From positions 91,252-155,251 of the forward strand of contig CACEMT010000001.1 of the NCBI GenBank assembly GCA_902560685.1: a stretch of DNA of 64,000 nt. Direction: 5' to 3'. Within the stretch, counting starts at the first letter, position 1, and every line of letters starts with the position of its first letter. The translations under genes and the position numbers were made by a program. This stretch comes from an uncultured Pelagibacteraceae bacterium (GTDB lineage Bacteria; Pseudomonadota; Alphaproteobacteria; Pelagibacterales; Pelagibacteraceae). A model generated the notes under the pieces. The model ran no database searches. It saw nothing but the letters and a program-made list of their open reading frames with translations, and was not told where the DNA came from. This document shows, one piece after another, positions 13,784 through 25,196 of this stretch.

Positions 13784-14383
13784 TTATTTTTCTATTATTT
13801 TTTTTACTCTTAAATATTCTTTCATATTATGAATATCTATATAGTTTGTTTTAAAAATACCTACCTTGGTACTCAAGGTTTTTTGAAAAACAGTTTTATA
13901 AGTCATAATTCTAAATGCACCATTTTGTAAATTATTTTTGTCAACAGCAAAAACTTCTTTTATTTTTTTATCTTTAAATATATTTTTAAAAAATCTTATC
14001 GCTTTATCTAAATCATTAGAAGTAATTTGTGGAGTATTTGCTTGTAAAGAAATTACAATCTTTGGAAAGTATTTTTCTTTATAAGATAAATACTTTGCAG
14101 CATGAACTATAGCATCATGTTTTTCCACATGATTTTTTGATAAATATTTTGGTCTTTTTATAAATTCAATTTTATTTTTTTGGCATAATTTTAAAATTTT
14201 TAAATTTTCTGAGCTAACAACTATTCTTGGTTTGTAAATGGACTTTTCAATTTTTTTTATAACATATAAAAACATTGGTTTATTTTTAATTTCTAAAATA
14301 TTTTTATTTTTTAATCTTTTTGAACCGCCTCTAACAGGCACAATCACTAAAATTTTTTTAGATTTTTGAAACTTTGATAACAT
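13784..14383 (-). CDS. neuA: CMP-nonulosonate cytidylyltransferase
   Basis: 199 residues, slightly short for the NeuA/PseF family. It begins with the nucleotide-binding PVRGGSKRLKNKNI loop, followed by PRIVVSSEN, HDAIVHAAKY and ISLQANTP segments in family order. It activates a nonulosonic acid with CTP to give the CMP-sugar donor. The C-terminal dimerisation part of NeuA appears trimmed. It is the second gene of the minus-strand operon, 3 bases after the regulator. It is the only such enzyme seen, so it may serve both nonulosonic pathways, or another copy lies left of the window. Confidence 0.85.
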   Translation of the reverse strand: MLSKFQKSKKILVIVPVRGGSKRLKNKNILEIKNKPMFLYVIKKIEKSIYKPRIVVSSENLKILKLCQKNKIEFIKRPKYLSKNHVEKHDAIVHAAKYLSYKEKYFPKIVISLQANTPQITSNDLDKAIRFFKNIFKDKKIKEVFAVDKNNLQNGAFRIMTYKTVFQKTLSTKVGIFKTNYIDIHNMKEYLRVKKIIEK

Positions 14384-16498: not shown

Positions 16499-17872
16499 AT
16501 GAAAAAAATTATTTTTTTTCCTATTGAAATAAAATCAAGAGAACTTAGGCCAAGACTTTTAATGTCGTTATTTGCTTTGAAAAAAAATTACGCATGTTTT
16601 GTAGGAAGTAAACAAGGAATATTAAGAGCAACAAGACACTTCAGCCCTGGTACTTATTTTTATAAATCAATGAATCATACAGATTTAGATCATATAAAAA
16701 AAATTAAAAAATTAAAAAATAATTATTTCGTGATCGATGAAGAAGGAGGATTTCAATATTCAACTTCAAAACAACTTAATAAGTTTATAACGATTAGAAG
16801 TAGTAAAAAAAATGTAGAACTTATAGATAAATTTTTTTCTTGGGGAAAATTTGACTTTGAAGAGTGGAAAAAAAGATATAACTCAAATTCAAAAAAGTTT
16901 AAATTGTTAGGATCTCCAAGAATAGATTTTTGGAGGGATGAAATTATCACTAAAGTATATAAGGAGGAGTTAGATGAGATTCAAAACAAATTTAGTAAAG
17001 ATATAGTTTTAGTTATAAGTTCATTTCTGACTTCGAAAAAAGAAGTAAAAAAATTTTTAAAAAATTATGATCATTGGTTTAAATTTAGAAATAAAAAAGA
17101 GAAAAGAAATGCAATAAAACAAGTAATGTCTGATTATAGATTTTTTAAAAATTACTTAAAAATGATTTCCCATATATCTAAAAATAATCCAAACTTAAAT
17201 TTTGTAATAAGACCTCATCCAAATGAAAATATTAATGATTGGAAACAATCAATAAAAAAAATGCCAAAAAATGTTTATGTAGATAAAAGTTATGATGTTA
17301 CTCCATGGATATATGTTTCAAAATATGTAATTCACAATTCTTCAGCCGTTGGCATGCAGACATCAGCTATGAAAAAAAATTTGATTACATATAGACCCAA
17401 AGGTTTTTTGTATGATAGAAATTTTACAAATAAGCTAGGACTGATTGTGAACAGTAAGTATAAGTTAGACAAAATTTTAAAATTAGAAATAAAAACTAAT
17501 AAAATTAAGTTATCAAATTATAAAACACTTAAAAAAAGATTTTATAGCCTAGGAGAAAAAAGTTTTGTATCCAAAAAAATAATAGATGAAATTAATTATG
17601 CACATAATTTTAAATCAAATATAAATATTTCTAAATTTTTAATCTTATCTTTGAGTTATAAGATTAAAGATTTAATTTATTCTTTTTTCAATATATTTAT
17701 AAAATCAAAAAAAAGACAACCGCATACTTCAAGAAGCTTTTTTGAAAAAATGTCCGGTGGTATAAAAAAAGGTGAAATAAGTTTATTTTTTAAATCAATG
17801 TCCAATTACGATCAAAAAATAAATTTATTAAAATTTTGTAAAAATTGTTTTCTTATATATAAGAAGGAATAA
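16499..17872 (+). CDS. Surface carbohydrate biosynthesis protein, paralog of 6520-7914
   Basis: 457 residues, same overall layout as the protein at 6520-7914: an N-terminal IFFPIE...RELRPRL segment, VIDEEGGFQY, FSWGKFDFEEW, LLGSPRID, a central FVIRPHPNE and HNSSAVGMQTSAM region. The RPHP-N/G-E landmark and the Ser/Thr-rich stretch after it recall GT-B capsule transferases. ATG start 3 bases after the ABC exporter stop. The two paralogs head for opposite ends of the divergent regulon; they may act on two sugars of the same repeat. Function beyond glycan assembly is not assigned. Confidence 0.7.
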   Translation: MKKIIFFPIEIKSRELRPRLLMSLFALKKNYACFVGSKQGILRATRHFSPGTYFYKSMNHTDLDHIKKIKKLKNNYFVIDEEGGFQYSTSKQLNKFITIRSSKKNVELIDKFFSWGKFDFEEWKKRYNSNSKKFKLLGSPRIDFWRDEIITKVYKEELDEIQNKFSKDIVLVISSFLTSKKEVKKFLKNYDHWFKFRNKKEKRNAIKQVMSDYRFFKNYLKMISHISKNNPNLNFVIRPHPNENINDWKQSIKKMPKNVYVDKSYDVTPWIYVSKYVIHNSSAVGMQTSAMKKNLITYRPKGFLYDRNFTNKLGLIVNSKYKLDKILKLEIKTNKIKLSNYKTLKKRFYSLGEKSFVSKKIIDEINYAHNFKSNINISKFLILSLSYKIKDLIYSFFNIFIKSKKRQPHTSRSFFEKMSGGIKKGEISLFFKSMSNYDQKINLLKFCKNCFLIYKKE

Positions 17873-17886
17873 CTATCAAAATTGAA

Positions 17887-18510
17887 ATGAAAGATAAATA
17901 TTTACAAAAAATAGAAAATGCTTTTTTAGAACATCTTTTAAAAATAAAAGATCCTCAAATTCTAGAATTTGGAGTAAGACATGGTCAATCGACCAAATTA
18001 TTCATTGATATTTGTGAAAAAACAAATGGATTTTTATATTCTGTAGATATTGATAATTATGAAAATAAATTCTTGTCAAAAAAATGGAAATTTATTCATG
18101 GTAGAGATGATAATTATGAATTAGTTGAAAAATTTATACCAAAAAAATTAGATGTTGTATTTCTAGATAGTTTTCATAACGCGAACCATGTTGAAAAAAT
18201 ATTTTATCATTATTATCCAATGGTAAAACAAGATGGTATTTTTGTAATTGATGACATTAACTGGATGTTATATTCAAAAAATAACACTAGAGACAATTTT
18301 AATTCAGAAATAAATAATTATGAAACCTTTTTTAGAATTTTAGATATTTACAACTCAAATATTGAAAATTTTGACTTATCATTCGACTTTATCGGTTCAG
18401 GTATAGCTAAAATAAAAAAAATTACTAACAATCAATTATCAAAAAGAAAGAAAGTTATTTTAAGAAAAAATACAATTAAAAATATTATTAGAAAAATCTT
18501 ACAAAAATAA
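17887..18510 (+). CDS. Class I SAM methyltransferase, Methyltransf_24-like
   Basis: 207 residues, compact SAM fold: ILEFGVRHGQSTKLF as the cofactor loop, LYSVDIDNYE as the acidic strand, DVVFLDSFHNANHVEKIFYHYYPMVKQDGIFVIDDINW as the family's typical distal motifs. This pattern (FGV..G.ST, DSxHxxxHVxKD-like, G..V.DD) is that of small O-methyltransferases related to cephalosporin hydroxylase-like and macrocin-type families. No membrane segments. It sits between the surface-carbohydrate protein and the sulfotransferase-fold gene, so a glycan hydroxyl or the phosphoramidate group is a likely acceptor. Confidence 0.75.
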   Translation: MKDKYLQKIENAFLEHLLKIKDPQILEFGVRHGQSTKLFIDICEKTNGFLYSVDIDNYENKFLSKKWKFIHGRDDNYELVEKFIPKKLDVVFLDSFHNANHVEKIFYHYYPMVKQDGIFVIDDINWMLYSKNNTRDNFNSEINNYETFFRILDIYNSNIENFDLSFDFIGSGIAKIKKITNNQLSKRKKVILRKNTIKNIIRKILQK

Positions 18511-18513
18511 TTT

Positions 18514-19497
18514 ATGAAAAGTTTGAAAGTGGTAAATATTAGTCCTGGCCTAAGCGGCGCCGGTTTAATTTCTGATTATTTATTGAACAGGAAAGATTTT
18601 ACTAATCCTTTTAATTTAGAGGCTGAATTTAGATTATTACATGACCCGGGTGGTATTCATAATTTGTATAAAGGTTTGTATGAAAATTTTAGTGTAAATA
18701 ATTCATCTTATTTTTTTAATGAGTTTGAAAAATATATTTTAAATTTAAAAAACCTTTCTTCAAAAATAAAAAATAAAAAAAAATATCATTACGATTCAGT
18801 TTTTTTTAATGAGGTTAAAAAATATGTAAGTGAAATAAGTTTAATAAGTTATTTTGGTCTACCAGAATATTTTAGAATTGGATTTGATTTTAATGATAAG
18901 CTCAAATGGAGAATACTAAGGATTAGCAAGTCATCTCAAGAGGTTAAATTTTGTAAAATGAGAATTCCAGTAGAAAAAGAAATCTTTTTAAAAAAAACAA
19001 GAATATTTTTAAACAAAGTTTTATTTATTTTATCAGGAAAGAAAAAAATAAACTATGTAATCGATCAAGGAGGAAATTTTTGGGATCCAATTAAATCTAC
19101 ACAGTATTTCGATAATAGAAAAATTGTTTTGGTTACAAGGGACCCAAGAAGTATTTTTTCAAGCATGAAAACAAGGAAATCTTTGGCATATCCTGGGCAC
19201 GATATTAAAATTTTTTGTGAATGGTATAAAAATATAATGAAAAATTATACTAAAATAAAGGAAAGTAATATTTTAATAAAAATAAAATACGAAAACTTCA
19301 TTTTAAATCATGAGAAAGAATCAAAAAAACTTCTTAAATTTCTTAATATAAAAAACTTGAAAAAAAAAAAATTTGATATAAGCAATTCAAAAAGTAATAT
19401 TTTTAAAGCTAAAAATTACTTAACAAATAAAGAACTTAAATATATAGAAAAAAAACTAAAAAAATACTTACAATGGCCCAAAAAAATTTATATTTAA
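18514..19497 (+). CDS. Sulfotransferase-fold protein, candidate phosphoramidate transferase
   Basis: 327 residues. The segment IVLVTRDPRSIFSSMK (about 204-219) is the 3'-phosphate-binding motif of sulfotransferases, and the C-terminal ILIKIKYENFILNHEKES...LLKFLNI segment is the usual family ending. The 5'-phosphosulfate loop at the N-terminus reads NISPGLSGAGLISDYLL, a degenerate form of GxxRSGTT. Standard family members move sulfate from PAPS. Here the operon makes 3'-phospho-CDP-amidate, a PAPS-like donor, and SAR11 is known to lack assimilatory sulfate reduction, so I infer transfer of phosphoramidate as an alternative. Its last 25 bases overlap the next gene. Confidence 0.72.
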   Translation: MKSLKVVNISPGLSGAGLISDYLLNRKDFTNPFNLEAEFRLLHDPGGIHNLYKGLYENFSVNNSSYFFNEFEKYILNLKNLSSKIKNKKKYHYDSVFFNEVKKYVSEISLISYFGLPEYFRIGFDFNDKLKWRILRISKSSQEVKFCKMRIPVEKEIFLKKTRIFLNKVLFILSGKKKINYVIDQGGNFWDPIKSTQYFDNRKIVLVTRDPRSIFSSMKTRKSLAYPGHDIKIFCEWYKNIMKNYTKIKESNILIKIKYENFILNHEKESKKLLKFLNIKNLKKKKFDISNSKSNIFKAKNYLTNKELKYIEKKLKKYLQWPKKIYI

Positions 19498-20075
19498 TAA
19501 GACATGGAAAAGCTGCGATGGATGGATTTGATAGAGAAAGAGTTTTAGACTCGGATGGAATAATTCAAGCCACTTCACTTTGTAAAAAAATTAAAACTCA
19601 ATTCAAAGATCAAAAAATAAGGATTATTTCAAGTCCCTTCAAAAGAGCGATGCAAACTATAGAAAAACTATCCCAAGATATGTCTGCCGATATTGAAAAA
19701 AGTCAATCATTAGAAGAGATAAATATTGGAAAAGATCAAAATTTATCTAAGCACCAAATAATTGAAAAAATGTGGAGTGATAAAAATTTCAAGGTTCAAA
19801 ATGGCTCGTCACAATCAGAACATGTTGATAAAATAAAAGATGAATTTAATAAAATCTTAGATGATTTTTATAAAAATGATTACAATTTAATATTAATTTC
19901 TCATGGTAATTCAATTGGCATTATTTTAAAGTATTTTTTAGATACTGAATTTACATTTAATGACTGGAAAAAAATTAGCATGCCAGATATGTATTGCTTG
20001 AGTTTCAATGAGGAAAATAAGATTATTAATTTTAAAAGAGATATAGATGGTATAGAAAAAATATTTACTATTTAA
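19473..20075 (+). CDS. Histidine phosphatase superfamily protein
   Basis: 200 residues with the phosphohistidine motif LIRHGKA (8-14), SSPFKRAMQT, the second catalytic His in LISHGNSIG and a PDMYCLSF end strand, all typical of the phosphoglycerate-mutase-like phosphatases. The start codon lies inside the sulfotransferase-fold gene (25-base overlap), implying translational coupling. In an operon that makes a nucleotide with a 3'-phosphate, it could recycle 3'-phospho-CMP or dephosphorylate an intermediate; this is inference, since the family is broad and acts on many small substrates. Confidence 0.82.
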   Translation: MAQKNLYLIRHGKAAMDGFDRERVLDSDGIIQATSLCKKIKTQFKDQKIRIISSPFKRAMQTIEKLSQDMSADIEKSQSLEEINIGKDQNLSKHQIIEKMWSDKNFKVQNGSSQSEHVDKIKDEFNKILDDFYKNDYNLILISHGNSIGIILKYFLDTEFTFNDWKKISMPDMYCLSFNEENKIINFKRDIDGIEKIFTI

Positions 20076-20104
20076 TTATGAAAGAAGTTAATTATGAAAG
20101 AAGA
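20073..20104 (+). repeat. 16-base tandem duplication at the start of the next gene
   Basis: TAATTATGAAAGAAGT occurs at 20073-20088 and again (15 of 16 bases) from 20089. It duplicates the start codon: the first ATG at 20078 opens an 11-codon out-of-frame ORF ending at 20113, the second ATG at 20094 opens the methyltransferase. Confidence 0.85.
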
Positions 20105-20921
20105 AATAAATAAAAAATACTTAAAAGAAAAACAGTATAAATCTACTAAATACCTGGAGGCAAGAATCAAGATTCACCAGTTTACAAAAAATAAGATTGG
20201 TTTTCATGAGTGGATTTTTAGTCAATATGATTTATCAGAATTTGAAAAAGAAAATAACGAAATTAAAATCTTAGATGTTGGGTGTGGAACCGGAGTATTT
20301 TGGAAAAAAAATATAAATAATTTTAAAAAATATAAGCTTGATATTACTTTTACAGACGCAACAGAAGCCATGGTTGAAAAGGAAAAAATAAATACTGCTG
20401 AATTAGATGCAAAAAAAAAATATGAGATAGCTGACATAGACAATTTAGAAAAGTATAAAAATCAATTTGACATAGTTTTTTGCCACAATGTTGTTTACCA
20501 CGCAGGAGATAAAGAAAAGTCAATAAAAAATTTAAAAGACTGTCTAAATGATAAACCATCTTCTTTTTGTAGTATTACTACTAATAGCGAAAAACATATG
20601 TTAAATGTTTATGAAATAGGAAGAAATTTAGATAAAAATTTTCCAACAGATAGAATTATAGATTCTTTCACTGAAGAGATAGCTGATAAAATGTTGCCAA
20701 AATTTTTTAAAATTGAAAAAAAAATTGAAGAGGAAGAATTAAGAGTTACAGATTGGGAAATTTTAATGGGTTTTGTTGCATCAGGAGTTGAACCAAGAGG
20801 AATAAAATTAGTAGATAATTTTTGGGATGAATATAAAAAAATTTATGATCAAGAATTTAAAAAAAATGGGTATTTTAAAATTATAAAAAGGTCTCCATTA
20901 TATATTTGTAAAAAAAATTAA
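20094..20921 (+). CDS. Class I SAM methyltransferase in the phosphoramidate cluster
   Basis: 275 residues. The cofactor loop is ILDVGCGTGVFW, followed by ITFTDATEAMV and IVFCHNVVYHAGDKEKSIKNL (motif II and post-II), a usual small-molecule methyltransferase pattern. In Campylobacter jejuni the phosphoramidate genes are accompanied by SAM methyltransferases thought to add the O-methyl group; this gene is directly upstream of the kinase and may have that role. The start at 20094 is the second copy of a duplicated start region. An out-of-frame ATG 16 bases upstream may lower its translation. Confidence 0.78.
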   Translation: MKEEINKKYLKEKQYKSTKYLEARIKIHQFTKNKIGFHEWIFSQYDLSEFEKENNEIKILDVGCGTGVFWKKNINNFKKYKLDITFTDATEAMVEKEKINTAELDAKKKYEIADIDNLEKYKNQFDIVFCHNVVYHAGDKEKSIKNLKDCLNDKPSSFCSITTNSEKHMLNVYEIGRNLDKNFPTDRIIDSFTEEIADKMLPKFFKIEKKIEEEELRVTDWEILMGFVASGVEPRGIKLVDNFWDEYKKIYDQEFKKNGYFKIIKRSPLYICKKN

Positions 20922-20929
20922 TCCACGAA

Positions 20930-21454
20930 ATGATTTTATGGATAACCGGTATTTCAGGCTCGGGCAAAACAACACTTGGTAAATATTTTTTTAAAGATTT
21001 TAAAAAAAAACATAAAAATACTATATTTCTTGATGGAGATGAATTTAGATCCTTATTCAGTAACGATTTAAAATATACAATTAAAGATAGAGATAAGAAT
21101 GCAGAGAGAATGACAGCTTTTGTTAAATACTTATCTAATCAGAGTATTAATCTTGTTATAAGTGCAAATATTACATCTCAAAAGTATAGAAATTGGTGTA
21201 AAAAAAATCTGAAAAATTTTGTTCAAATTTATATAAGGGCAAGCCTTAATTCGTTAAAAAACAGAGATTATAAAGGTTTATACAAAAAAGCACTAAGTGG
21301 AAAAATCAAAAATGTTGTAGGAGTTGATTTACCATTTAGGGATCCAAAAAAAATAGATCTTTTTTTAAGTAATGATGGATCTAAGAAAGAATTTTTAAAA
21401 AAAGTAGACATAATTAAGAAATTTTTAAGGAAAAATTTAATTAAGATTTATTAA
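20930..21454 (+). CDS. CysC-like kinase, probable CDP-amidate 3'-kinase
   Basis: 174 residues, adenylylsulfate-kinase fold: P-loop GISGSGKTT (7-15), FLDGDEFRSLF, DRDKNAERM, VISANITS, and the ending NRDYKGLYKKALSGKIKNVVGVDLPFRDP, close to APS kinases. The Campylobacter counterpart Cj1415 is a CysC-type enzyme that phosphorylates CDP-amidate on the 3'-hydroxyl. Here the next three genes match in type the other three enzymes of that pathway, so I assign the amidate role over APS phosphorylation; no ATP sulfurylase gene is in the window. Sequence alone cannot rule out APS kinase. Confidence 0.82.
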   Translation: MILWITGISGSGKTTLGKYFFKDFKKKHKNTIFLDGDEFRSLFSNDLKYTIKDRDKNAERMTAFVKYLSNQSINLVISANITSQKYRNWCKKNLKNFVQIYIRASLNSLKNRDYKGLYKKALSGKIKNVVGVDLPFRDPKKIDLFLSNDGSKKEFLKKVDIIKKFLRKNLIKIY

Positions 21455-21476
21455 TTTATGTCCATAAATTTAGTTC

Positions 21477-23861
21477 ATGTTTATAAATAAAGCACAAAAT
21501 CTAAACTATTTAGAGAAATTTAAGATTAAAAATACAGGAATACCAAAATTTATTTATTTTAACGTTTTGGAATGGAAGAATAATAGACAACTCATAATTA
21601 AAAAAATAACAAAAAAATTAGATAATAAAATTTGTATAAGATCATCATTTTATAAAGAAGATTCAAGTAAAACCTCTCTTGCAGGTAAATTTGAGAGTTT
21701 TATAAATATTTCAAATAACAAAAAAAATATTACTAAAGCTGTAAATAATTTAATAAATCAATATCAAAGGTTCGATAAAAAAAAAAAATTTTTTTTTAAA
21801 AATTATTTACTAATACAAAATTTTGTTAAAAATTCTATTTGTAGCGGTGTAGTTACCAATTATACACTTGGAGATGGTGCACCATATTATTCTATAAATT
21901 ATAACGATCAAACAAGTTCTACACTTTCAGTCACGTCTGGGGATAAGAATAGTTATAGAGTTTTACATGTTTCAAGAAATTCAAATAAAAATATTAGATC
22001 TATTAAATTTAAAAAAATCATAGATGCTATAAAAAAAATTGAAAAAATTTATAAATACAAGCCTCTGGATATAGAATTTGCACTAAATAAAAGTTTTAAA
22101 GTTTTTATTTTACAAATTAGACCTATCTCAACATCTTTTAAATGGAAAAAAATAAATGAAAAAAAATTTAACAATTTATTAAAACAAAATGAAAAAAAAT
22201 TTAGAAAAATTTGTAAAAGAAATGTAAAATATGGAAAAAAAGGTATTTTTGGATTGATGCCAGACTGGAATCCTGCAGAGATTATTGGATTTCAGCCTAA
22301 TATATTTTCTTATTCTTTATATAAATTTTTGGTAACCGATGAAATCTGGGCAATTGCTAGAGAGCAAATGGGATATAAAAAATTAAGAAAACCAAAACTA
22401 ATGTATTCATTTACAGGGAAACCTTATATCGATCTAAGAATGTCTTATAATTCTTTACTCCCAAAAAATTTAAATAAGAGCATAGAACCAAAAATAACAA
22501 ATTACTGGATAGATGAACTAATTAAAAAACCTTATCTTCACGATAAGATTGAATTTGAAATTACAGATAACTGTTACTATTTTGGTTTTGAAAAAAAAAT
22601 AAATAAGAAATACAATTTTTTAAATAAAAAGGAAAAAAAAATATTTATTAATTCTCTTAAAATGTTAACAAATAATATTTTAGAAAATTATAAATCTAAT
22701 TTTGAAGAAATGAAAAATGAAATTCTAGATTTAGAAAGATTTAGAGTTTCATCAATAAAGAGTTTTTTAAATAAAAAAGATAATATTAAACACTCAAAAC
22801 AGTTATTAGAAAAATGCAAAATTTCTGGTTTGGTACCTTTTTCTAAACAAGCAAGAAATGCGTTTATATCAAAGAAGATTTTATCATCACTAGTTGATAA
22901 TAATATATTATCTAAATCAAGTTATTTTAAAATTCTAAGTAAACTTAAAACTGTTTCCCATGATTTTATTTCTGATCAAAATAAACTTAAGGTAAATAAA
23001 ATGAAAAAAAATGACTATGAAAATAAATACTTTCATTTAAGACCTAATACTTATGATCTTTTAAATAAGAGATATAACGAAAATATACTGGAGCATAAAA
23101 TTCCAGAAGTGCAGCTTAATTTATTGTTAAACCATGATTTTAAAAATGTAGAAAGATTAATTACAAAGAAAGAATTTAGTAAATTAAATTTAATTTTAAA
23201 AAGAAAAAAAATTAAAACTGATGTAAATAATTTACTTTCTTTCTGCATAGGGTCTTTAAAACTAAGAGAAAATTACAAGTTTATTTTTTCAAGAAGTTTA
23301 AGTGATGGAATTCAATTGCTAAGGAACTATTCTAAAAAAAAAGGAATAATTGAACATTTTTCAAATGTCGATTTAGAAACTATTTTTAAAGTTAAAAACA
23401 GATCAGATTTATTAAATTTAAAGAGAAAATCTCACAATAATAAAGTTTTAAGTGAATATTTTAATTATGTAAAATTGCCATATCTTATAGTTTCAAATAA
23501 TGATTTTTTTGTTTCGTCTATTCTATTGTCTAAGCCAAACTTTATAACTGATAAAAATATATCTGGAAAATTAGTTTTTTTAGATGGAAAATCAGCAAAA
23601 AGCTCATTAAAAAATATGATAGTTGTTATAGAAAATGCTGATCCTGGTTTTGACTGGATTTTTTCTCATAAAATTAAAGGTTTAATTACAAAGTTTGGAG
23701 GCATAAACTCACATATGTCTATAAGGTGTGAAGAATTAAATATTCCTGCAATTATTGGATTTGGAGAAGACAATTTTTCTAAAATCACTAACTTAGAAAA
23801 ACTTAATGTAAATTGTAAATTACAAAAAGTGAATTTTGGAGAATTAAAAAACAATGATTAA
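21477..23861 (+). CDS. PEP-synthase-like kinase, probable L-glutamine kinase
   Basis: 794 residues. The N-terminal part is the ATP-grasp domain of the PEP-synthase/PPDK family: CIRSSFYKEDSSKTSLAGKF-type loop, QNFV...SGVV, LDIEFAL and FILQIRPIS. The C-terminus is the swivelling phosphohistidine domain with KGLITKFGGINSHMSIR, catalytic His at about residue 746, and IPAIIG. No PEP/pyruvate barrel is recognisable between them; the middle is a Lys-rich domain of about 400 residues. Campylobacter Cj1418 (about 767 residues, His near 737) has the same design and phosphorylates the amide nitrogen of glutamine with ATP. The adjacent amidotransferase and nucleotidyltransferase complete the pathway. Confidence 0.85.
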   Translation: MFINKAQNLNYLEKFKIKNTGIPKFIYFNVLEWKNNRQLIIKKITKKLDNKICIRSSFYKEDSSKTSLAGKFESFINISNNKKNITKAVNNLINQYQRFDKKKKFFFKNYLLIQNFVKNSICSGVVTNYTLGDGAPYYSINYNDQTSSTLSVTSGDKNSYRVLHVSRNSNKNIRSIKFKKIIDAIKKIEKIYKYKPLDIEFALNKSFKVFILQIRPISTSFKWKKINEKKFNNLLKQNEKKFRKICKRNVKYGKKGIFGLMPDWNPAEIIGFQPNIFSYSLYKFLVTDEIWAIAREQMGYKKLRKPKLMYSFTGKPYIDLRMSYNSLLPKNLNKSIEPKITNYWIDELIKKPYLHDKIEFEITDNCYYFGFEKKINKKYNFLNKKEKKIFINSLKMLTNNILENYKSNFEEMKNEILDLERFRVSSIKSFLNKKDNIKHSKQLLEKCKISGLVPFSKQARNAFISKKILSSLVDNNILSKSSYFKILSKLKTVSHDFISDQNKLKVNKMKKNDYENKYFHLRPNTYDLLNKRYNENILEHKIPEVQLNLLLNHDFKNVERLITKKEFSKLNLILKRKKIKTDVNNLLSFCIGSLKLRENYKFIFSRSLSDGIQLLRNYSKKKGIIEHFSNVDLETIFKVKNRSDLLNLKRKSHNNKVLSEYFNYVKLPYLIVSNNDFFVSSILLSKPNFITDKNISGKLVFLDGKSAKSSLKNMIVVIENADPGFDWIFSHKIKGLITKFGGINSHMSIRCEELNIPAIIGFGEDNFSKITNLEKLNVNCKLQKVNFGELKNND

Positions 23862-24462
23862 AATTGGCATTACATCAAATATTAAAAAATATTATAAAGG
23901 CTATATAGACTTCATAGATCATTACTGGATTAATTTTTTTGAAAAAAAAAAAATTGAATATAAACTCATTCCTAATAGTAAGTATTTATCTGAAAAAACA
24001 CTGAAAAAAATTGACATTCTTATTTTAGCTGGAGGTAATGACATTATCTCTAAAAAAAAAGAATCTTTTATTAGAAATAAAATTGAAATTAATTTGATAA
24101 ATAAAGCTATTAAAAAAAAAATTCCCATTTTAGGAATTTGTAGAGGAGCGCAGCTGTTAAATATAAAATTTGGAGGGAGAATTAGTAAAGTAAAAAATCA
24201 AATGAGAACAAGACATAATATATATTTTTATAAAAATGATATAATTAAAAAAAATATACTCAATGTAAATAGCTTCCATAATTATGGAATTAAACATAAG
24301 GATTTTTCAAAAAAATTGAAAATTGTAGCAGCTGACATTGATAAAAACATAGAAATGTTCATATCTAAAAAAAATAAAATTATAGCTACCATGTGGCACC
24401 CTGAGAGAGAAGAAAATAAAAAAATTTTAATAAATCTACTTAAAAAACTTGCAAAACTATGA
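23854..24462 (+). CDS. Class I glutamine amidotransferase-like hydrolase, probable CDP-glutamine hydrolase
   Basis: 202 residues, peptidase C26-like fold: LILAGGNDI (oxyanion region), nucleophile elbow GICRGAQ with Cys96, RTRHNIYF, and MWHPEREE with His182 and Glu184. All three catalytic residues are present. Cj1417 of Campylobacter is of this type and splits gamma-glutamyl-CDP-amidate to glutamate and CDP-amidate. The gene overlaps the kinase before it by 8 bases and the nucleotidyltransferase after it by 4 bases (ATGA). Without that context it would be read as a generic gamma-glutamyl hydrolase. Confidence 0.85.
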   Translation: MIKIGITSNIKKYYKGYIDFIDHYWINFFEKKKIEYKLIPNSKYLSEKTLKKIDILILAGGNDIISKKKESFIRNKIEINLINKAIKKKIPILGICRGAQLLNIKFGGRISKVKNQMRTRHNIYFYKNDIIKKNILNVNSFHNYGIKHKDFSKKLKIVAADIDKNIEMFISKKNKIIATMWHPEREENKKILINLLKKLAKL

Positions 24463-25196
24463 AAGTAATAATTTTATGCGCAGGAAAGGGCAGAAGGTTT
24501 AAAATGAGGACTCCAAAGTGTTTGCTTAAAATAGGCAAAGAAACTCTAATTGAAAAATGCTTAAAAAATTTCAAAGATAATAATATTGAATCGAAAGATA
24601 TAATTTTTGCAACTGGTTTTAAAGAAAATTTAATAAAAAAAAAAGTAGGAAATAAATATGTTTTTATCAAAAATAAAGATTATGAAAATACAAATATGGT
24701 TTATACTTTTTTTAATGCACTAAAAAAAATCAAAGATGTAGATATCATTGTTGCATACTCAGATATCATGTTTAGTTCAAAAGATTTAAATAATTTAATA
24801 AAATCAAAATATAAATTTACTACACTCATAGACTCAAAATGGAAAAATATATGGAAAAAAAAGAAAAAGCTTTTATTAGACTCTGAAACTCTTAAAATTA
24901 ATAAAAATAAAATAATATCCTTAGGAAAAAAAACAAAAAATATAAAAAATATTGATGGAAGATTTGTTGGAATTAGTAAAATATCTTCCAATGAATTAAA
25001 AAAAATAAAGCTTATTTTTAATGAAAATTTATTTAAGTATCCAGAAAAATTTAAAAAAATTGATATGACTAATTTTTTTGATTTTCTTATAAAAAAAAAA
25101 CAAAATATTTATACGACCAAAACACATTCAAGTTGGTATGAATTTGATGATAAAAATGATTTAAAATCTTTTAAAGGTCAAAACTTAAAAAGCTAA
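24459..25196 (+). CDS. Nucleotidyltransferase, probable CTP:phosphoglutamine cytidylyltransferase
   Basis: 245 residues, nucleotidyl-transferase fold of the LicC/Cj1416 kind: opening LCAGKGRRFKMRTPKCLLKI, FATGFK, NTNMVYTFFNAL, VAYSDIMF and a closing SSWYEFDDKNDLKSF motif that resembles the end of CTP-using transferases of this group. Cj1416 transfers CMP to glutamine phosphate. ATG overlaps the amidotransferase stop (ATGA). It is the last gene of the operon that begins at 14786. An alternative reading as phosphocholine cytidylyltransferase cannot be excluded from the fold alone. Confidence 0.83.
   Translation: MKVIILCAGKGRRFKMRTPKCLLKIGKETLIEKCLKNFKDNNIESKDIIFATGFKENLIKKKVGNKYVFIKNKDYENTNMVYTFFNALKKIKDVDIIVAYSDIMFSSKDLNNLIKSKYKFTTLIDSKWKNIWKKKKKLLLDSETLKINKNKIISLGKKTKNIKNIDGRFVGISKISSNELKKIKLIFNENLFKYPEKFKKIDMTNFFDFLIKKKQNIYTTKTHSSWYEFDDKNDLKSFKGQNLKS

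Follow-up and report, generated by a model that had tools for sequence, protein, structure and literature searches.

In Campylobacter jejuni, the enzymes Cj1415 to Cj1418 make cytidine diphosphate (CDP)-phosphoramidate 3'-phosphate from glutamine, ATP and cytidine triphosphate (CTP) (PMC11800397), and this CDP-amidate pathway serves the decoration of the capsule with O-methyl phosphoramidate (MeOPN) (PMC11800397, PMC3907429). The product is named as the likely donor, and the loss of Cj1421 or Cj1422 is described to remove the MeOPN group (PMC11800397). Both of these proteins have a C-terminal domain of unknown function, DUF2972 (PMC5808241), which is also present in C. jejuni CipA according to a text section that lists arylsulfate sulfotransferase pseudogenes separately (PMC9769813). 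MeOPN is a phage receptor in C. jejuni (PMC5808241), and for the HS:19 capsule the enzymatic details of phosphoramidate decoration are termed "currently unclear" in a part of a report of June 2026 (PMC13276843). Here we analyze the window, a stretch of 64,000 nucleotides from an uncultured Pelagibacteraceae bacterium of the SAR11 lineage (contig CACEMT010000001.1, positions 91,252 to 155,251), which carries a run of genes designated SULT, HISP, MTx, KIN, GLNK, GAT and NTP (Table 1). Judged by homology, the last four genes very probably make 3'-phospho-CDP-amidate. The reading that we favor for the subsequent transfer, with a probability of roughly 0.55, is that bacterial phosphoramidate transferases as a class are repurposed sulfotransferases, the SAR11 protein SULT being a Sulfotransfer_3 member and the Campylobacter proteins divergent members of the same fold, while 3'-phospho-CDP-amidate acts as a mimic of 3'-phosphoadenosine 5'-phosphosulfate (PAPS). 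Such mimicry would explain why the 3'-phosphate is added by a relative of adenosine 5'-phosphosulfate (APS) kinase.

The C. jejuni locus L081 served as the reference for pairwise protein comparison. KIN shares 39% identity with the L081 kinase (E 1.5e-36), GLNK 33% over 811 columns with the glutamine kinase (E 7e-118), GAT 38% over 141 columns with the hydrolase (E 6e-22), and NTP 32% over 252 columns with the nucleotidyltransferase (E 1.2e-29); with E-values from 7e-118 to 6e-22, the likeness to the C. jejuni genes is not a matter of chance. In the reverse search against the 93 open reading frames (ORFs) of the window at E 0.01, the four C. jejuni proteins match their respective counterparts and no other ORF. 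The original prediction, made from the DNA letters of the window, had placed four adjacent, overlapping or near-touching genes at 20930-25196 and regarded them as counterparts of Cj1415, Cj1418, Cj1417 and Cj1416. These coordinates are exact to the base, with all four genes on the + strand, and the comparison with the Cj1415-Cj1418 types gives a match for every gene, the pairwise and the reverse matches being in agreement. The gaps between KIN and GLNK, GLNK and GAT, and GAT and NTP are 22, -8 and -4 bases, respectively. Like the C. jejuni genes, the four are adjacent, correspond in family and motifs, and are situated in a surface-glycan locus. The gene order differs in that KIN is first in the window, whereas in L081 the glutamine kinase comes first, followed by the hydrolase, the nucleotidyltransferase and finally the kinase, with two methyltransferases and a transferase truncated at the contig end upstream. 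In place of genes of the Cj1419/Cj1420 type, the window has the SULT-HISP-MTx run; no Cj1419/Cj1420-like cluster gene was found among the neighbors of the 32 GLNK loci of the order Pelagibacterales.

GLNK had been described as a protein resembling phosphoenolpyruvate (PEP) synthase but devoid of the PEP barrel, and this description is borne out. Its Pfam content consists of PPDK_N and the PEP-utilizers mobile domain, and there is no further Pfam match up to E 1, hence no match to the PEP/pyruvate barrel. The phosphohistidine proposed near residue 746 corresponds to His746 within a GG-NSHM motif, and the same motif carries His737 in the C. jejuni homologue, which scores 1171 bits with NF004508/PRK05849. 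PEP synthase models give at most 58 bits on GLNK against cut-offs of at least 598, compared with 717 bits for NF004508/PRK05849, which rules out a true PEP synthase. All three residues of the class I amidotransferase triad proposed for GAT are found, Cys96 in a GICRG motif starting at residue 94, and His182 and Glu184 in an HPE motif starting at residue 182. When the C. jejuni nucleotidyltransferase is searched against the window's own genome (81% complete), NTP is the best of five matches with 86 bits, followed by one of 28 bits. Sugar nucleotidyltransferase models are all far under cut-off for NTP and equally for the C. jejuni protein; low scores alone thus exclude nothing, and direct homology decides. 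On that homology NTP falls with the L081 protein, a sugar uridylyltransferase is set aside, and NTP is predicted to use CTP like Cj1416.

The APS-kinase Pfam family includes KIN (111 bits), and Sulfotransfer_3 includes SULT. A locus for the sulfation of glycans therefore has to be considered, with KIN as an APS kinase, SULT as a conventional sulfotransferase that uses PAPS, and the other three genes serving some other purpose. The evidence on the kinase makes this highly improbable. Both KIN and the L081 kinase exceed the PRK05541 cut-off, in line with the predicted CysC-like kinase of 174 residues of the Cj1415 type. A quick tree built from 95 kinases, with support from the Shimodaira-Hasegawa-like approximate likelihood ratio test (SH-aLRT) only, places the two in a group of 82 rows (SH-aLRT 98), apart from Escherichia coli CysC and the CysN-CysC-type kinases L179 and L180. 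Kinases of several GLNK loci or genomes (L038, L039, L041, L071, L091, L092 and L178) are also outside this group, and a few kinases from genomes without GLNK are inside; given exceptions on both sides, the tree supports the placement of KIN but does not provide a perfect split. The closest relatives of KIN, with 58-62% identity, come from genomes G352, G084 and G218, of which G352 and G218 have glutamine-kinase matches, the match in G084 being weak and of the type seen with PEP synthases. The search for ATP sulfurylase (PF01747) and CysD (TIGR02039) covered 36 genomes: G074, G329, G084 and all 33 genomes whose glutamine-kinase match scores 132 bits or more. Neither is above cut-off in any of the 36 (own genome 81% complete), and no PAPS route was thus detected above cut-off by these two models; weaker sulfate-activation matches are seen in G218 (17.8 bits), G324 (22.6) and G307 (22.5), and 5 and 4 of 14 control genomes, respectively, are above cut-off. 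The lack of matches above cut-off in all 36 genomes makes a PAPS role for KIN unlikely and, combined with the tree, led us to discard an APS kinase of sulfate assimilation with an ATP-sulfurylase partner as the identity of KIN. The occurrence of KIN fused to GLNK in other genomes further argues against glycan sulfation.

A residue rule for the kinase type was tried as well. The letter following DGD is N in 3/3 CysC/CysN-CysC rows and in 0/92 of the others, five of which have no such motif, and is too variable to be diagnostic. We also note two divergent arrangements. In G218 (L184, contig C5), a second, divergent APS-kinase-like gene adjoins the ATP-sulfurylase fragment of 17.8 bits. In G245, whose genome also has a glutamine-kinase match, a KIN-family kinase forms the C-terminal part of a 612-residue protein (L178:2243-4078), and its N-terminal part appears by eye to be of the SGNH/GDSL type.

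In the route predicted from these homologies, GLNK would N-phosphorylate glutamine, NTP would couple N-phosphoglutamine with cytidine monophosphate (CMP) from CTP, GAT would cleave off glutamate to leave CDP-amidate, and KIN would add a phosphate at its 3'-OH. The allotment of the middle steps to individual enzymes is presumed from general knowledge of the pathway. The identity of GLNK to the C. jejuni enzyme is just 33%, and the best NCBIfam model of GAT, NF045546, yields 108 bits and misses its equivalog cut-off of 250, while the C. jejuni hydrolase reaches 331 bits; the shortfall counts against our assignment, and GAT is classed as a homologue and not as a member of the equivalog. Both observations would suit a GLNK whose substrate is a different amide or small molecule, in which case the locus would make a related nucleotide-activated N-phosphoryl group instead of free phosphoramidate. 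We consider this improbable because the four genes are kept together and include a homologue of the hydrolase that frees P-NH2 in C. jejuni. GAT probably works like the gamma-glutamyl-CDP-amidate hydrolase.

Comparison across genomes shows that the CDP-amidate module is accessory in the order and widespread in bacteria. Of the order's 397 genomes, 27 have a glutamine kinase above cut-off, and six more have matches of 132-422 bits that are split, partial or at contig ends, giving 33/397 in all. The remaining listed matches are of ~20-30 bits, as expected for other PEP-synthase-like proteins. A pattern scan of named genomes confirmed at least 580 GLNK relatives, and the 80 that were kept come from Campylobacterota, Bacillota, Bacteroidota, Spirochaetota, Acidobacteriota, Planctomycetota, Pseudomonadota and others. 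Together with the window and 31 loci of the order (L035-L065), these make up the 112 GLNK loci compared, in whose fetched stretches GAT is matched in 103, NTP in 107, and KIN, fusions included, in 80. KIN and GLNK are fused in one ORF in six loci (L113, L115, L116, L117, L120 and L126; bins of Acidobacteriota and Gammaproteobacteria), and in L037 (8872-11856) a nucleotidyltransferase-like domain is fused ahead of the glutamine kinase, a separate nucleotidyltransferase gene also being present there. These fusions support a single pathway. Two unusual frames were observed in the comparison. The glutamine kinase of L061 (G158, a single-contig genome) is split over two ORFs and the gene looks broken, and L063:1290-7565 is a 2092-residue ORF whose C-terminal end is the C-terminal half of a glutamine kinase.

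SULT is, on balance, the candidate phosphoramidate transferase of this locus, a prediction drawn from its family, motifs and genomic company. In PAPS enzymes, an SG loop and an RDP motif bind the 5' and 3' phosphates. An alignment of 11 SULT-family rows shows that a loop with Ser14 and Gly15 near the N-terminus and the triad Arg209-Asp210-Pro211 are invariant in 11/11 homologues. To SULT, 3'-phospho-CDP-amidate would resemble PAPS; SULT would most likely move the phosphoramidate onto the surface glycan of the island and leave 3'-phospho-CMP as the by-product. The arrangement is akin to the PAPS pathway of APS kinase and sulfotransferase in that an enzyme of the APS-kinase family adds the 3'-phosphate and an enzyme of sulfotransferase fold would use the product. 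It differs in that no ATP sulfurylase is above cut-off in the 36 genomes and that the proposed donor is built on cytidine and bears phosphoramidate. L057, L058, L059, L106 and L108 each carry a SULT relative close to the gene for the glutamine kinase. The distance is 84 bases in L057, 2.3 kb in L058 and 38 bases in L059; a Myxococcales locus has a relative at 0.7 kb and a Nitrospina locus one at 1.4 kb. Among the 397 genomes, 16 have a SULT match, and in nine of these the match is at least 149 bits. Six of the nine have a glutamine-kinase match, compared with 33/397 overall (Fisher p 1.5e-5, uncorrected for kinship).

The Campylobacter transferases provide the second line of evidence. The partial L081 transferase and a C. 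coli relative (L085) score 407 and 290 bits on NF058596, the O-methyl phosphoramidate transferase model (Cj1421/Cj1422 type), both with partial coverage of the model and below its cut-off of 600, and both are above cut-off for DUF2972. In 14 aligned DUF2972 members, Arg179-Asp180-Pro181 and Thr266 are invariant and Gly104 is nearly so; the glycine loop is SG in the L081 protein and VG in that of L085. This RDP motif and glycine loop are placed as in SULT. Both features precede the Pfam DUF2972 stretch, which covers residues 252-463 in L085, indicating that the sulfotransferase-like fold spans both parts of the protein. AlphaFold predicts the L085 protein with a predicted local distance difference test (pLDDT) score of 82.5. 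In VIA, all 50 matches listed for it are sulfotransferases, including Teg12, Teg14 and StaL, which we take to be such partly from general knowledge; the best (1t8t_B) has a Z of 12.1 and a root-mean-square deviation of 4.3 over 223 aligned residues, and residues ~84-458 of the model are aligned in most rows. In Foldseek, sulfotransferases and the related retinol dehydratase fill rows 1 to 33, and an adenylate kinase follows in row 34; the best match has a probability of 1.00 and an E-value of 7e-3, none being at or below 1e-3. The C. coli protein is thus well predicted to have a sulfotransferase-like fold, although the fold alone does not reveal the donor. The two kinds of protein differ in architecture, the Cj1421/Cj1422 type being composed of an N-terminal part and DUF2972, while SULT, with 327 residues, is simply a member of Sulfotransfer_3. 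Profile comparison found no full-length sequence similarity between SULT and the DUF2972 proteins of that type, and none of the nine window proteins at 16499-25196 has a Pfam match to DUF2972. A DUF2972 search of the own genome gave no match and was silent in all controls too, so it does not establish absence.

The neighbors of the GLNK loci were grouped in 47 clusters and compared with the SULT profile by hhalign. Besides SULT's own cluster, four match, with P values of 4e-10, 1.3e-6, 4.5e-6 and, for the DUF2972 cluster, 3e-4 (26 columns), and the remaining 42 have P of at least 0.016. Against the DUF2972 profile, the three other sulfotransferase-like clusters give P of 0.002-0.005. The Pfam sulfotransferase cut-off is passed by members from L049, L051, L053, L054 and L075, with L124 and L069 below it, and the cluster members from L067 and L120, one from L054 and one from L042 have no Pfam match at E 0.01. 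One of the five sulfotransferase-like clusters is present in 54 of the 112 GLNK loci, 8/32 in the order and 46/80 elsewhere. Such a gene occurs in 43/80 loci with the kinase and 11/32 without it, which is no significant association over the 112 loci (p 0.09).

A number of findings weigh against SULT as the transferase and against the repurposed class. The 149-bit cut was chosen after the list had been seen, and over all SULT genomes GLNK is present in 6/16, the other seven having no glutamine-kinase match of at least 132 bits (0/7). In G074 and G329, SULT lies among glycan genes without a glutamine kinase; in G084, SULT and a window-type KIN are 2.3 kb apart at a contig end, again without GLNK; and in G194, SULT and a glutamine-kinase match are on different contigs and there is no KIN match. 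The predicted model of SULT itself is too weak to build on (pLDDT 54.8), although the 50 structural matches listed for it are likewise sulfotransferases or retinol dehydratase. The profile link of SULT to DUF2972 covers 27 columns only (probability 47%, P 1.9e-4), and two clusters that bear no sign of the fold reach P 0.0023 and 0.0068 with the DUF2972 profile. Sulfotransfer_3 is above cut-off in 226/327 genomes of the order, and 24 of the 32 GLNK loci of the order lack all five sulfotransferase-like clusters. The strongest listed Sulfotransfer_3 matches of the order are mostly of ~500-580 residues (one example is G000:C2:59159-59722). Because the family is this common, the fold in a genome by itself says little. 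Sulfotransferase-like proteins are likewise widespread in the order although the 36 genomes searched for ATP sulfurylase and CysD have neither above cut-off.

These observations give some weight to the possibility that 3'-phospho-CDP-amidate is made but that another gene of the island moves the group, SULT having a different job. It is suggested by the frequency of Sulfotransfer_3 and by the many loci of the order without such a cluster, and also by PF04464-like genes, which some loci have instead. A PF04464-like cluster without kinase is present in L036, L040, L046, L048 and L052. When only those 22 loci of the order are counted that extend 4 kb in both directions, 0/4 with this cluster have the kinase, and by genome a kinase match is found in 0/5 with the cluster, compared with 8/8 that have a sulfotransferase-like gene at the compared locus. 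Possibly there is a second transfer route, in which PF04464-like transferases use CDP-amidate itself without the kinase. This lead is weakened because L038 carries both a PF04464 gene and the kinase, because Pfam matches nothing in two of the five cluster proteins and stays below cut-off in a third, and because G194 has SULT without a kinase match. For SULT, the idea of another transferase is countered by the co-occurrence of close SULT relatives with GLNK beyond chance (kinship uncorrected), by the short distances in the Nitrospina and Myxococcales loci, and by the sulfotransferase-like fold of the Campylobacter transferase relative. We therefore regard it as doubtful, though a serious contender, and retain SULT as the putative transferase. 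The search for SULT relatives in viral contigs found none.

The coordinates of the gene run are compiled in Table 1. All gaps from SULT to NTP are at most 22 bases, and the following gene begins 132 bases further on.

Table 1. Genes of the run from SULT to NTP in the window (positions within the 64,000 nucleotides).
Gene	Assignment	Length (residues)	Position	Strand	Supporting match
SULT	Sulfotransfer_3-family protein	327	18514..19497	+	PF13469, 32.2 bits (cut-off 27)
HISP	Histidine phosphatase superfamily	200	19473..20075	+	PF00300, 71 bits
MTx	S-adenosylmethionine (SAM) methyltransferase	275	20094..20921	+	Pfam methyltransferase domains
KIN	CDP-amidate kinase homologue, Cj1415 type	174	20930..21454	+	NF004041/PRK05541, 145 bits (cut-off 127)
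GLNK	L-glutamine kinase homologue, Cj1418 type	794	21477..23861	+	NF004508/PRK05849, 717 bits (cut-off 501)
GAT	Gamma-glutamyl-CDP-amidate hydrolase homologue, Cj1417 type	202	23854..24462	+	NF045546, 108 bits (below cut-off 250)
NTP	Nucleotidyltransferase, Cj1416 type	245	24459..25196	+	Homology to L081 protein

The methyltransferase that the original prediction saw upstream of the four genes is MTx, which is not of the Cj1419/Cj1420 type. Close homologues of MTx are found in three of the 397 genomes, the own genome G000, G218 and G352 (611, 555 and 444 bits, the next match being 37), and each of the three has MTx, a window-type KIN, SULT and a glutamine-kinase match, with HISP in all three. 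HISP matches its homologue in L058 with 330 bits, and a third copy of HISP, in L164, adjoins MTx and the kinase. The window and L058 (G218) share almost the whole gene order of the run and are thus not independent cases. As guesses, HISP might clear the 3'-phospho-CMP by-product, a speculative clean-up function, and MTx might O-methylate the phosphoramidate group, which is possible.

The GC content of the window is 23.8%, which, like the size of ~0.7-1.5 Mb of the other genomes in the order, is consistent with SAR11. A surface carbohydrate biosynthesis protein above its NCBIfam cut-off is encoded at 16499-17872, and the surroundings also include an ABC transporter, a GDP-mannose dehydratase, an aminotransferase, glycosyltransferases and a UDP-sugar dehydrogenase. 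By its gene content the neighborhood is a surface-glycan island, as had been proposed. A CTP_transf_3 cytidylyltransferase gene is also located nearby (13784-14383, - strand); in L058 (11439-12982), a relative of it and a NeuB-like gene, recognized by eye, are situated within the gene run.

The open-license literature yielded no description of phosphoramidate in SAR11, which is weak evidence; the match retrieved was a "SAR11K" lineage label in a Campylobacter experiment. Among the best open-license matches, no title or abstract start links sulfotransferases with phosphoramidate or the capsule. The window would hold a pathway of known kind in a lineage for which no description was found, and a sulfotransferase-type transfer would be a testable variant of it. 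The recognizable fold and the logic of the donor make the transfer step of phosphoramidate directly testable. If bacterial phosphoramidate transferases are indeed repurposed sulfotransferases, some marine proteins annotated as sulfotransferases may be phosphoramidate transferases. Should a SAR11 lineage carry the group, interactions between phages and their hosts in the ocean could be affected, and the sea would contain an unrecognized P-N compound.

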